Assembly (NCBI GenBank): GCA_903935195.1
Contig: CAIZQW010000154.1
Location: 1-49,473 of the forward strand
Direction of reading: 5' to 3'
DNA: 49,473 nucleotides
From: an uncultured bacterium
Lineage (GTDB): Bacteria; Verrucomicrobiota; Kiritimatiellia; RFP12; UBA1067
Every line of letters starts with the position of its first letter. The stretch's first letter is position 1. Below are positions 1-3,621 of this stretch, one piece after another. The translations under genes and the position numbers were made by a program. The notes below the pieces were generated by a model, which did no database searches, was not told the origin of the DNA, and saw only the letters and a list, made by a program, of their open reading frames with translations.

Positions 1-62
1 ATCGGTTAGGACATCAGGTTCTCATCCTGGAAAGAGGGGTTCGACTCCCCTTGGGGGTGCCA
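1..62 (+). tRNA. tRNA-Glu (CTC anticodon), 5' end outside the window
   Basis: The sequence holds a D arm, an anticodon stem (TCAGG/CCTGG) with loop TTCTCAT, a T arm (AGGGG/CCCCT with TTCGACT) and a 3' acceptor strand ending in an encoded CCA at 60-62. The anticodon at positions 34-36 of the loop is CTC, which reads GAG (Glu). Roughly the first six bases of the acceptor stem lie before base 1. It is followed eight bases later by a second tRNA, so the two are probably co-transcribed. Confidence 0.9.
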
Positions 63-69
63 TTCGTTG

Positions 70-145
70 GCCAACGTAGCTCAGTTGGTAGAGCAGTTCA
101 TTCGTAATGAACAGGTCGTCCGTTCGATCCGGATCGTTGGCTCCA
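70..145 (+). tRNA. tRNA-Thr (CGT anticodon)
   Basis: This is a complete 76-base cloverleaf. The acceptor stem is GCCAACG (70-76) with CGTTGGC (135-141), followed by discriminator T and an encoded CCA (143-145). The anticodon stem GTTCA/TGAAC carries loop TTCGTAA, giving anticodon CGT, which reads ACG (Thr). It lies directly after the tRNA-Glu and before a terminator-like hairpin. Confidence 0.95.
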
Positions 146-156
146 TTTGTCTGCCT

Positions 157-197
157 CGAAAGCCCAGTGTTGGTGGGTTTCGGGGTTTTTGTTTTTG
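157..197 (+). terminator. Probable rho-independent terminator of the tRNA pair
   Basis: The arms CGAAAGCCC (157-165) and GGGTTTCG (175-182) pair with one bulged G and are followed by a T-rich run (GGGGTTTTTGTTTTT, 183-197). It lies just after tRNA-Thr and ends about 15 bases before the next start codon, so it may insulate the ACT-domain gene from tRNA transcription. Confidence 0.65.
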
Positions 198-211
198 AGG
201 AGACATAAAAC

Positions 212-769
212 ATGCAACGATTCATCACATCTGTGTTTCTGAAGGATCGCGTGGGTATCTTGAGGGATATCACTCAGGCCGTCTTTTTGCTGGAGGGGAA
301 CATTGGGAGCATCCGCCAGACCGTGGTGGAGGGCTTCTTCACGCTGGTTTTTAGGTCTGAACACCCCGACAAGGTGAGCCAAACGGATCTCAGAACCAAG
401 ATTGGCGCAGCGCTAGGACCCCTCGCAGTCGTGACGGTGGTGGCGTGTCCAGAGGTCGTCGAGCCCGTAGTCGCTTCAGGCTCTCGTTTTGTTGTCACAA
501 CCCGTGGCGAAGATAAACCAGGAACCATTTTTGCTATCACCTCGTTTCTCGTTGAGCATGGTATCAATATTGAACACTGGCTGGTTGAGGAGGATGCCGG
601 GCAGATTGTCTATATTGCGCAGATCATTATTCCTGATACTGTCGACTTCCGCAAGATCCAAGAGACGTTTCGAGACGCTATGGCACAACGTGGTCTTTCC
701 GCGTTGCTCTGCCATGAGAACATCTTCCGGGCGACTAATGAAATCGGCCCGATTAAAGCGCTACTATGA
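212..769 (+). CDS. Protein with two ACT domains (UPF0237/GcvR-like)
   Basis: This 185-residue protein has two ACT-like regulatory domains, about residues 3-75 (beginning RFITSVFLKDRVGILRDITQ) and 92-170 (FVVTTRGEDKPGTIFAITSF). ACT domains usually bind amino acids or similar small ligands. UPF0237 proteins are generally single-ACT proteins of about 90 residues encoded just upstream of UPF0210/DUF711, so this is a duplicated version of that partner. A good SD (GAGGAG) precedes ATG 212 by nine bases. The TGA stop (767-769) overlaps the first bases of a short-period repeat, and a four-helix-bundle gene now separates this gene from its usual DUF711 partner at 1255. The ligand is unknown. Confidence 0.8.
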   Translation: MQRFITSVFLKDRVGILRDITQAVFLLEGNIGSIRQTVVEGFFTLVFRSEHPDKVSQTDLRTKIGAALGPLAVVTVVACPEVVEPVVASGSRFVVTTRGEDKPGTIFAITSFLVEHGINIEHWLVEEDAGQIVYIAQIIIPDTVDFRKIQETFRDAMAQRGLSALLCHENIFRATNEIGPIKALL

Positions 770-1242
770 TTTTAGATTTTAGATTTGTGATTTTAGATTT
801 GAGGCTTTAAAATCATAAATTTAATTTGACGGGGCTAAGTTTATGACAGAGCAAGAGTTGAAAGACCGAACCAAGCGTTTTTCATTGCGAGTGTTAAAGG
901 TGGTCAATGCTTTACCTGATACAGTGGCTGGCCGGGCTATTGGGGGACAGTTGATCAGATCGGGTGCTTCAGTGGCTGCGAATTATCGAGCAGCATGTAT
1001 CTGCCGGTCAAAAGCTGAATTTATTGCAAAGTTAGGGATTGTGCTTGAGGAAGCAGATGAGAGTTGTTTTTGGCTTGAATTTATCATTGAAGGCGAACTT
1101 CTTGACGCAAAAAGGGTCGAGTCTCTTCTTGCTGAAGGCGAAGAGCTGAGAGCCATCTTTATTTCTTCAATCCGTAGTGCTAAGGGATGATAGCCTTGGC
1201 AGTAGTTACAAATCACAAATCACAAATCTAAAATCTAAAATT
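768..1242. mobile_element. Inverted-repeat element carrying an IVS-type four-helix-bundle gene
   Basis: Two AT-rich arms face each other around the gene at 843-1190. The left arm (768-803) is a run of 7-base units such as ATTTTAG and ATTTGTG. The right arm (1208-1242) is the reverse complement of the same unit series. About 23 bases at the outer ends match perfectly and most of the remaining arm matches too. The left arm begins inside the TGA stop codon of the upstream ACT gene, and the right arm ends just before the SD of the DUF711 gene. IVS-type proteins are known from intervening sequences inserted in bacterial 23S rRNA helices. Treating this as a mobile cassette is inference; no transposase is present. 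Confidence 0.6.
843..1190 (+). CDS. Four-helix-bundle protein (23S rRNA intervening-sequence protein family)
   Basis: This 115-residue, mainly helical protein matches the pattern of the IVS/S23 family (TIGR02436-like): an N-terminal helix (RFSLRVLKVVNAL), a conserved RSGASVAANYRAA stretch around residues 45-57, then SKAEFIAKLGIVLEEADES and a C-terminal helical segment. Members form small, often pentameric, bundles. Some are encoded in 23S rRNA intervening sequences, and a related protein (Avd) assists diversity-generating retroelements; no reverse transcriptase is present here. It sits between AT-rich inverted arms inside what is normally a two-gene operon. Its function in this setting is unknown. 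Confidence 0.8.
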   Translation: MTEQELKDRTKRFSLRVLKVVNALPDTVAGRAIGGQLIRSGASVAANYRAACICRSKAEFIAKLGIVLEEADESCFWLEFIIEGELLDAKRVESLLAEGEELRAIFISSIRSAKG

Positions 1243-1254
1243 GTCGAAGGAATC

Positions 1255-2628
1255 ATGATTACGAGACAGAATGTACTTTCAACGATCCGCATGGTGAGGG
1301 AAGAGAACTTGGATGTTCGCGCGGTGACCTTGGGGATCAACCTCAATATCTGCGCCAATCCCAATCCTGACCAATTGGTCAAAGCGGTGTATGACCGCAT
1401 TGTGGACAAGGCGCAGCATCTGGTGCGTTTCTGCGATGAAGTGAGCGTGAAATATGGACTGCCTATTGTCAATAAGCGTATCGCGGTCTCGCCAGTCAGC
1501 ATTCTCTTGGAAGGTCACACGGTCGAGACGGCCATCCGCGTGTGCAAGGCACTGGACCAAGCGGCTGAGGCTGTAAAGATTGATCTGCTCGGTGGCTATT
1601 CCGCACTTGTTCAGAAGGGGATGACGCCTGGGGAGCGGACCCTGATCAACTCCTTGCCTCAGGCTTTGACAGCCACAAAGCGTGTCTGCTCCTCGTTTAA
1701 TGTGGGAACGACCAAGGCAGGCATTAATGTGGATGCCACGAATCTGATTGCCCAGAAGATTATTGAGACTGCCGAGGCAACGTCCGATACGCAGGGCTTT
1801 GGCTGCGCCAAGATCGTTGTTTTTGCTAATATGCCAGAGGACAATCCCTTCATGGCGGGCGCGATGCTCGGCTCTGGCGAAGCGGAGTGTGTCATCAATG
1901 TGGGCGTGAGCGGTCCAGGGGTGGTCAAGCGTGCGATTGATCGGTTGGTGCAGAACTCCCCGAAAGCAATGCTCAATGAGATTGCAGAGGAGATTAAGCA
2001 CACGGCCTTCCGAGTGACGCGCACAGGAGAACTCATTGGCCGCGAAGTGGCTAACCGCCTCAAGATTCCCTTTGGCGTGGTGGATCTCTCTCTGGCGCCC
2101 ACCCCGCGTGTGGGCGATTCCGTTGGCGAGATTTACCAGAGCATGGGAATCCGACTGATTGGCGCGCCTGGAACCACTGCGGCTGTGATGCTACTGAATG
2201 ACGCGGTTAAAAAGGGTGGCGCGTTTGCTTCGAGTTCGGTGGGCGGACTTTCCGGCGCCTTCATTCCAGTGATGGAAGACCACGCGCTCTCAAAGGCAGT
2301 TGCCGACGGGACGCTGACGCTGGAGAAGCTCGAGGCCATGACCGCAGTCTGTTCTGTTGGCCTTGACATGATCCTCCTGCCAGGATCAACCACAGCAGAA
2401 ACCATAGCAGGTATCATCCTTGATGAGGCGGCCATCGGTATTACGAACCGTAAGACCACAGGCGTGCGTGTCATTCCTGTGCCGGGTTCGAAACCGGGGG
2501 ACTTTATAGATTTTGGCGGTCTTTTTGGTTCGGGTGTGATTATGAATCCGGCGAGCCCTGAAGGTGCGGAGTGCTTTGTGCGCCGCGGCGGACAGATCCC
2601 CGCACCGATTCACAGTTTGATGAATTAA
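1255..2628 (+). CDS. UPF0210/DUF711 family protein (PFL-like fold)
   Basis: The protein has 457 residues, close to the roughly 450 usual for DUF711 (also called PFL family). The N-terminus MITRQNVLSTIRMVREENLD and the segments FGCAKIVVFANMPEDNPFMA, GVSGPGVVKRAID and CSVGLDMILLPGSTTAETIA are typical of the family. ATG 1255 is chosen because GAAGGA lies just upstream and the family N-terminus begins there; reading further upstream would run into the repeat arm. It is predicted cytoplasmic, with a fold related to glycyl-radical enzymes but no proven activity. Its usual partner, an ACT protein, lies at 212-769 on the far side of the inserted cassette. A NusG-like gene follows after one base. Confidence 0.85.
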   Translation: MITRQNVLSTIRMVREENLDVRAVTLGINLNICANPNPDQLVKAVYDRIVDKAQHLVRFCDEVSVKYGLPIVNKRIAVSPVSILLEGHTVETAIRVCKALDQAAEAVKIDLLGGYSALVQKGMTPGERTLINSLPQALTATKRVCSSFNVGTTKAGINVDATNLIAQKIIETAEATSDTQGFGCAKIVVFANMPEDNPFMAGAMLGSGEAECVINVGVSGPGVVKRAIDRLVQNSPKAMLNEIAEEIKHTAFRVTRTGELIGREVANRLKIPFGVVDLSLAPTPRVGDSVGEIYQSMGIRLIGAPGTTAAVMLLNDAVKKGGAFASSSVGGLSGAFIPVMEDHALSKAVADGTLTLEKLEAMTAVCSVGLDMILLPGSTTAETIAGIILDEAAIGITNRKTTGVRVIPVPGSKPGDFIDFGGLFGSGVIMNPASPEGAECFVRRGGQIPAPIHSLMN

Positions 2629-2629
2629 G

Positions 2630-3115
2630 ATGAAACACTGGAAAGTATTGTTTGTAAAGCCTCGGACAGAGAAGAAGGTTGCAGAGTACTGCAAGCTCTA
2701 CGGCATTGATGTCTATCTTCCGATGCGGGAAAGTACACGCGTGATACAGCGCCGTAAGATTTCGGTGCTGACGCCGCTCTTTTCAGGCTATGTGTTTGTT
2801 CGTCTGCTACCGTCGCAGAAACTACAACTTCAGCAAACCAATCTGCTCGTCCGTATTTTGGAGCCATCAAATCCACGCAAGATGTTACGTGATCTCATCA
2901 TGGTCCGGCGTGCGCTGTGTGCGAATCCAGCCTTGGCGCCTGCCAAACCGCTGACAAAGGGACGTTACGTTCGCATTATAGATGGTCCCTTCCAAGGCAT
3001 CGAAGGCCGTGTCGCACGTCTGACCTCAAAGATGAAGGTCGTCTTGAATATTGATATGATCGGCCAAGCTACGGCGGTTGAGATCGAGTCTGATTACGTC
3101 GAAGTCTTGGACTGA
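2630..3115 (+). CDS. NusG-family transcription elongation factor (specialised paralogue)
   Basis: This 161-residue protein has an N-terminal NGN domain (KHWKVLFVKPRTEKKVAEYC through PLFSGYVFVRL, about residues 2-100) and a C-terminal KOW domain (KGRYVRIIDGPFQGIEGRVA, about 108-160). NGN binds RNA polymerase and limits pausing; KOW recruits partners such as ribosomes or Rho. It is shorter than housekeeping NusG and is not next to secE or rplK, so it is more likely an RfaH/UpxY/LoaP-type operon-specific factor. It begins one base after the DUF711 stop, suggesting translational coupling. The 3' end overlaps the convergent Nudix gene by 22 bases. Its target operon is not visible here. Confidence 0.8.
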   Translation: MKHWKVLFVKPRTEKKVAEYCKLYGIDVYLPMRESTRVIQRRKISVLTPLFSGYVFVRLLPSQKLQLQQTNLLVRILEPSNPRKMLRDLIMVRRALCANPALAPAKPLTKGRYVRIIDGPFQGIEGRVARLTSKMKVVLNIDMIGQATAVEIESDYVEVLD

Positions 3116-3621
3116 GAAAGACATTTCAGTTGGTGCCAGAGCATCAGCTCACCCTCAAAAACGAATTGCGCTTCAAAGCGCGTGCCTTCCAGCATGAGTG
3201 GAAGCCAGAGTCGGTCATCGCTCCACATCTGCTCATAAGGGATAGCCTCTTCTTCACACCAGAAGGGAAGGGCCTCGTCGGTCTCACGCATTTCGCCTGT
3301 GCAGTTGTTCGCTGTGAACACATGCGCTTGCAGGGAGTAACCATCGGTAAAGGCGAAGTCGAGGCGCCCTGCAAAAACAAGTCCGATAGGGGTCAGGCCG
3401 ACTTCCTCTTGACACTCGCGGACCGCAGTCTGTTCGAGGGTCTCGCGCTTCTCCTGGCGTCCGCCGGGCGCATTAATCTTGCCTTTGCCGAGGCCGCGCT
3501 TCTTGTGGATCAAAAGCAGTTTACCCTCTTTGCGTATAAAGCATAACGTAGCAACATCGACCGGCATCCACGTGTCCCAGTCGATGTTGAAGGATTCGTT
3601 CAAAGAAGTTTTGAGAATCAT
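3094..3621 (-). CDS. Nudix hydrolase, MTH1-like (8-oxo-dGTP diphosphatase type)
   Basis: The protein has 175 residues. The Nudix box is complete: a Gly-Gly pair, a Glu six residues on, then RECQEEVGL, fitting GX5EX7REUXEEXGU, at about residues 53-76. The flanking segments LLIHKKRGLGKGKINAPGG and, near the end, WSDDRLWLPLMLEG with FVFEGELMLWHQL closely follow human MTH1/NUDT1, which removes oxidised purine nucleotides from the pool. It begins by a one-base overlap (TAATG) with the stop of the upstream secreted-protein gene, so the two are co-translated. Substrate preference is inferred from family similarity. Confidence 0.85.
   Translation of the reverse strand: MILKTSLNESFNIDWDTWMPVDVATLCFIRKEGKLLLIHKKRGLGKGKINAPGGRQEKRETLEQTAVRECQEEVGLTPIGLVFAGRLDFAFTDGYSLQAHVFTANNCTGEMRETDEALPFWCEEEAIPYEQMWSDDRLWLPLMLEGTRFEAQFVFEGELMLWHQLKCLSQSKTST

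Follow-up and report, generated by a model that had tools for sequence, protein, structure and literature searches.

Within the window (the whole 49,473-nt stretch of DNA that was analysed), a small gene framed by inverted repeats lies between an ACT-domain gene and a DUF711 gene. The upstream host gene (212..769, + strand) encodes a 185-aa protein with two ACT domains (PF01842, 1e-13), and the downstream host gene (1255..2628, + strand, ATG at 1255) encodes a DUF711 protein of the PRK05313/UPF0210 type (PF05167, 1e-175; NF003700, 1.7e-200). An earlier note on this DNA had taken the upstream partner for UPF0237: the ACT domains are present, but the protein is a longer, double-ACT form and the PRK00194 (UPF0237-type) model stays below its cut-off. 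The gene lying between them (843..1190, + strand) encodes, as that note had proposed, a four-helix bundle, here of 115 aa and belonging to the 23S rRNA IVS-protein family (TIGR02436, 5.1e-21; PF05635, 1.8e-12). The inverted arms of 7-base units described on either side of it are real, with five units each: TCAAATC, TAAAATC, ACAAATC, TAAAATC and TAAAATC in the left arm (768..802, - strand), and ACAAATC, ACAAATC, ACAAATC, TAAAATC and TAAAATT in the right arm (1208..1242, + strand). The junctions with the host genes are also where they had been placed: the left arm begins at 768, inside the TGA stop of the ACT gene (767-769), which overlaps the first heptamer, and the right arm stops 3 nt short of GAAGGA (1246..1251, + strand), a Shine-Dalgarno-like motif for DUF711 that can be read from the sequence directly outside the arm. 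Rfam returned only two tRNAs in positions 1-3200 of the window; the cassette site is the ACT/DUF711 spacer and not an rRNA gene.

The arms form an inverted repeat of 33 nt (769-801 / 1209-1241; 94% complementary, spacing 407 nt), which is the top-scoring one in a scan of the 49 kb window. Its score of 28 is far outside what dinucleotide shuffles of both flanks produce (mean 8.0, maximum 14, 0/2000 reaching 28), and chance repeats are ruled out on this basis. When positions 740-1270 are folded as RNA, the arms pair into one long stem with the gene in its loop, in both the MFE and the centroid structure (z -3.1), so that the likeness to the 23S rRNA IVS design that had been suggested holds for the protein family and for the predicted RNA alike. 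A second, small hairpin (813..846, + strand; arms 813-823 / 836-846, 10/11 pairs, MFE and centroid) holds the ATG of the cassette gene (843-845) in its stem, which makes translational control of the cassette gene possible.

Comparison with relatives shows an insertion at the ACT-DUF711 site. In a sister species (G001), whose ACT and DUF711 proteins are 96% and 97% identical to those of the window, the two genes are spaced by 25 nt, compared to 489 nt in the window. Nearly all other relatives that have the pair carry the genes adjacent to each other and lack the cassette gene, as expected if the two are usually neighbours (L098 has a gap of 382 nt); a gene kept at this site in all relatives with unrelated flanks, the pattern of a stable operon gene, is not what is found. 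Short 7-mer arrays of other units, with no gene, occupy the junction at L076-L079. Three further sites differ between the window genome (G000) and its sister: (i), atpH-atpA, with a cassette in G001 and none in G000; (ii), SDR-deoC, with a cassette in G000 and only a solo array in G001; (iii), a third site, where G001 carries a cassette and G000 has a solo array together with a hairpin of heptamers that encloses no gene. Sites orthologous to cassettes can thus hold solo arrays or gene-less hairpins. The "empty" atpH site is probably a remnant because the C-terminus of AtpH is already encoded by the array unit in both species, unlike in outgroups. Similarly, the ACT-DUF711 site of G001 holds TTTACGATTTA and may be what was left after a loss rather than a virgin site.

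The locus is one case of a family-wide rule across many phyla, which extends the single-locus view of the earlier note. At an arm score of at least 13, arms are found in 139 of the 166 TIGR02436 loci surveyed (84%; the loci include close copies of one another and are not all independent) compared to 14 of 1327 random intervals of those loci (1.1%), the maxima of 43.5 in early controls being random windows that landed on a true cassette. The best period is 7 in 95 of these 139 armed cassettes and 8 in 24 of them. Degenerate arms are visible in some of the 27 loci under the threshold and in others there are none. For the weak matches L061-L068, a wider scan finds arms further out at L061, L063, L064 and L066. 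Other TIGR02436 genes of the window genome, in which a search for further copies had been suggested, have arms of different units (GTGAATA-type, AGTGTCAGTA-type and TAGCATG-type). Armed relatives occur in public genomes of Falkowbacteria, Doudnabacteria, Methylomirabilota, Lentisphaerae, Verrucomicrobia, Planctomycetota, Acidobacteria and Bacteroidetes. Plasmid-borne genes have arms in 22 of 23 cases (Cyanobacteria, Chloroflexota, Spirochaetota, Bacteroidota, Bacillota), in hosts that include Nostoc, Anabaena, Planktothrix, Gloeocapsa, Chlorohelix, Treponema and Monoglobus; the GATTTTA unit of Gloeocapsa PCC 7428 is that of the window, for a protein that is 50% identical.

The arm unit, usually 7 nt long, varies with the protein clade. 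Arm composition follows protein identity beyond local base composition, with a correlation that is low in absolute terms (partial Mantel 0.24, permutation maximum 0.04), and mean arm similarity rises from 0.07 below 25% protein identity to 0.53 at 65-85% and 0.93 above 85%. Shuffling the order of the heptamers makes a genuine, if modest, difference (25.5 vs 22.6). This covariation fits joint travel of arms and gene and is not by itself proof of binding. Variants of the layout exist. In a Chlorohelix plasmid (L259), a hairpin-forming stretch of ~100 nt made of the cassette's heptamers stands as a direct repeat on both sides of the gene. In a Lentisphaerae MAG (L134, 3289-3768), a GxxExxY protein (TIGR04256, PDDEXK_3 nuclease superfamily) lies between inverted arms of ~9-nt units (AACCACAAAAGAACGCAAGGAACACAAAAAT), and may represent a sister cassette type. 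Distant relatives (38% and 28% identity) are encoded in two unannotated human gut phage records, MT835590.1 and MT835815.1.

The comparison of arms between related cassettes gives the best evidence that the cell treats the stem as a real structure. Among pairs chosen by protein identity, the complementarity of an arm to its own partner stays at 24-25 as identity falls, whereas complementarity across cassettes drops from 25.1 to 16.5 to 9.7, close to the random level of ~8.6 (p 6e-6 at 16.5 and 1e-10 at 9.7). An earlier version of this comparison, in which some pairs had only flanks in common, gave a weak p of 0.04. Since complementarity is kept within a cassette while the arms diverge between cassettes, the arms evolve in concert. 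Nostoc cassettes show what such change looks like: of three orthologs, two have five units per arm and the third lacks exactly one unit from each arm; in a relative with 88% protein identity, ~30 nt of each arm have been replaced, the two changes mirroring each other; and in one with 72% protein identity CAATTCG has become TAATTCG throughout both arms. This suggests copying of one arm from its partner, via a hairpin intermediate.

That the gene is an ordinary, stable member of its operon beside incidental A+T-rich repeats is extremely improbable. Loci below the arm threshold might be read this way, and so might the purifying selection that comparison reveals on the protein (differences of 0.18/0.10/0.47 at codon positions 1/2/3, position 3 being highest in 60/60 pairs), but the shuffles, the contrast with random intervals and the co-evolving arms all speak against it, and the empty sites in relatives rule out a stable operon gene.

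Comparison also places the ends of the element at the arms. In 41 homologous cassette pairs with unrelated flanks no match runs more than 31 nt past the outer arm end, and in several of them (L054/L056, L127/L185, L199/L224) it ends within a few bases of both arms, indicating that the arms are the ends of a unit common to different sites. By gene calls based on ORF length, the left arm starts a median of ~8 nt after the upstream stop codon and, where both neighbours agree in strand, the cassette gene is sense to them in 44 cases and antisense in 2. Insertion contexts that could be named are drmD/pglX, csx2/cas1, DUF1156/Swt1, helicase/N6-methylase and hsdS/hsdR. Heptamer arrays also lie beside and around a tyrosine recombinase gene at L177 (1862-3266) and L118 (129-1479), the recombinase possibly being a partner enzyme or a nested insertion.

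A DNA-level foldback (MITE-like) element could have such ends. The arms would then act as terminal inverted repeats for a transposase or recombinase whose gene lies elsewhere, the four-helix gene would be accessory or a passenger, and the sense orientation would reflect selection because the gene needs a host promoter. Inverted ends, gene-less hairpins and solo arrays do resemble autonomous, non-autonomous and remnant forms, tyrosine recombinases adjoin some cassettes or arrays (L262, L269, L118/L177), and concerted arms are equally compatible with RNA and DNA hairpins. Nevertheless, no target-site duplication is found (shared words beyond the arms 3.05, shuffled 3.08, n=131), the arm units are wholly different between clades, unlike the terminal repeats of one transposase, and DNA transposons do not usually insert in one direction with such near-exact placement between stop and start codon. 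We consider a foldback element rather unlikely.

In the window genome, 16 further arrays of the window (AAATC) unit have no inverted partner nearby. They are co-directional with the next gene in 14/15 cases, often ending ≤ ~40 nt from its start, and this placement raises another possibility: the four-helix protein could be a post-transcriptional regulator of heptamer arrays, with the arms serving autoregulation and the solo arrays before start codons forming its regulon. The TAACTGA heptamers of Beggiatoaceae are similarly placed near start codons and have been proposed as regulator sites, by a mechanism that is not known (PMC4679880), and a regulatory role would be compatible with mobility as well. 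Against regulation, some genomes rich in AAATC solo arrays (G003, G065, G080) have no close window-type protein, 6 of the 16 arrays of the window genome lie inside long ORFs, many are embedded in larger dispersed repeats, and sites turn over rapidly between sister species. Across 96 genomes, AAATC arrays occur in 5 of the 7 that bear a window-type gene and in 21 overall, which is suggestive only of a link to a resident gene. A regulatory system is unlikely on balance. Some solo arrays of the window genome have particular surroundings: those of L044 (1-330), L041, L035 and L045 sit within a larger dispersed intergenic repeat (GCCGGCGGAGCCATGCC, array, AACGAAGTTATAGACAAG), beside which other short-unit repeats are found (GCGCAGAGGCGCTGAG, GACAGGATGAACAGGATT), and those of L040 (C134:2814-2841) and L047 (C432:5414-5434) lie in long frames and, by eye, join two cobalamin-type gene parts, as if neighbouring genes had been fused by the array.

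AlphaFold2 confidently models the 115 residues of the cassette protein as four helices (pLDDT 97.9), R9, Q36, K63, E70, E73, W77 and E98 are among the residues invariant in 25 relatives, and profile and fold searches of the protein reveal no transposase, nuclease or Y1 catalytic domain; no other gene is present between the arms. The best fold matches are 2RLD and 2GSC and, at lower rank, Avd (4DWL, TM 0.76); complexes of the reverse transcriptases (RTs) of diversity-generating retroelements (DGRs) are also matched (8UB7). Longer relatives (~250 aa) are found between arms at L061 (1000-2043), L063 (1009-1865) and L066 (1210-2164); the first combines TIGR02436 with a TIGR04258 suffix domain and a topoisomerase C4 zinc ribbon, thus a nucleic-acid-binding domain fused to the four-helix part, and the other two look similar by eye. 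At L156 (2001-2338), the returned coordinates contain 11 in-frame stop codons and describe either a copy that has undergone a frameshift or a tblastn match pieced together from parts.

The Avd-like fold, together with the sense orientation in operons, would be consistent with RNA-mediated retro-insertion by an RT acting in trans, the four-helix protein playing the part that Avd has in DGRs. RVT_1 has no match at E 1e-8 in the window genome (92% complete, with MAG gaps and transient RTs conceivable), nor in nine further genomes with at least 4 cassettes, and the association between cassettes and RTs is not significant (Fisher p 0.12), the rank correlation of their counts being weak (rho 0.23, p 0.02). 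An RT in trans is not supported as a requirement, its domain being undetected in these ten cassette genomes, and we regard retro-insertion as distinctly unlikely.

Taken together, we favour, with a probability of about 70%, the view that the feature belongs to a family of minimal mobile elements of about 0.45-0.5 kb (arm, four-helix gene, inverted arm), similar to the rRNA IVS and residing in protein operons. Mobility is here inferred from the comparison of sites. We hypothesize that, in the co-transcript of the host operon, the cassette would fold like an rRNA IVS, the gene lying in the loop of a stem, and that the downstream gene would therefore keep its start site, with little harm to the host. 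The four-helix protein, whose structurally solved relatives are pentamers and whose fold is that of Avd, the accessory protein of DGRs, could bind the heptamer stem of its own cassette. The element might be copied or moved via a single-stranded stem-loop intermediate, of RNA or DNA, in which an arm can serve as template for its partner, which would account for the concerted change of the arms. Cutting and joining would be performed by enzymes supplied in trans, since the cassette protein has no nuclease or transposase domain. The more general proposal is somewhat less probable than not: such cassettes would form a separate and widespread class of mobile elements, ending in a heptamer stem-loop specific to the encoded protein, with no transposase, target-site duplication or RT, with arms re-copied from each other, with unexplained heptamer arrays as their remnants, and with the rRNA IVS as the particular case of an element established in rRNA.

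Very many "four helix bundle proteins" (TIGR02436) are annotated at NCBI without a function, and heptamer repeats have been described since ~1990, to our knowledge with no origin given. The cassette would join these two separately known puzzles, selfish inserts of rRNA genes and unexplained heptamer repeats, giving the protein a testable function (recognition of its own stem) and the repeats a testable origin. The rRNA IVS would cease to be an oddity in the setting of a cassette family, and insertions are tolerated in core operons (atpH-atpA) as well as in defence operons (DISARM/BREX-type, CRISPR, type I R-M). While the protein family, its fold and the IVS precedent were already known, the general link to inverted heptamer arms, operon insertion and solo arrays appears to be new: in the open-access full texts searched (preprints being outside the scope) no prior report was found that connects the four-helix gene with all three, and an earlier report elsewhere is possible.

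Among known systems, the cassette is closest to the 23S rRNA IVS with an S23p ORF of Leptospira and Coxiella. Both have a PF05635 protein, complementary ends with the ORF between them (in the window, in the loop of the predicted fold), a size of ~0.45 kb and sense orientation, and upstream of its S23p ORF the Coxiella rRNA IVS even carries tandem GACAGAT heptamers whose copy number varies (PMC4990558). However, the rRNA IVS sits in an rRNA gene (helix 9, 25 or 45 of 23S) and the cassette in protein-coding operons, where one genome holds many cassettes that differ in their repeat units, and the cassette is known from sequence and predicted fold. An rRNA IVS is removed from the transcript by RNase III with no ligation afterwards, a step that the cassette RNA might share. 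Compared to classical transposons and insertion sequences with terminal inverted repeats, both a transposase gene and a target-site duplication are missing; MITEs or foldback elements and RAYT/REP likewise combine short inverted ends with gene-less derivatives, but the cassette protein has no transposase or Y1 catalytic domain, no target-site duplication is seen, and the arms are clade-specific tandem 7-mers. The protein shares its fold with Avd, a distant resemblance between the two families having been noted before (PMC10053308), while the window genome yields, at the cut-off used, no RT of the kind that a DGR involves. Finally, the arms have the tandem 7-nt units of heptanucleotide repeats. 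In cyanobacteria such repeats are the STRR. Like these and the TAACTGA arrays of Beggiatoaceae, the arms are intergenic, near start codons and patchy across distant phyla, but STRR and TAACTGA repeats have been described as direct arrays occurring singly, with no known origin, the TAACTGA study reporting one inverted repeat set only and no link to a four-helix gene (PMC4679880), whereas the arms of the cassette form an inverted pair around a gene.
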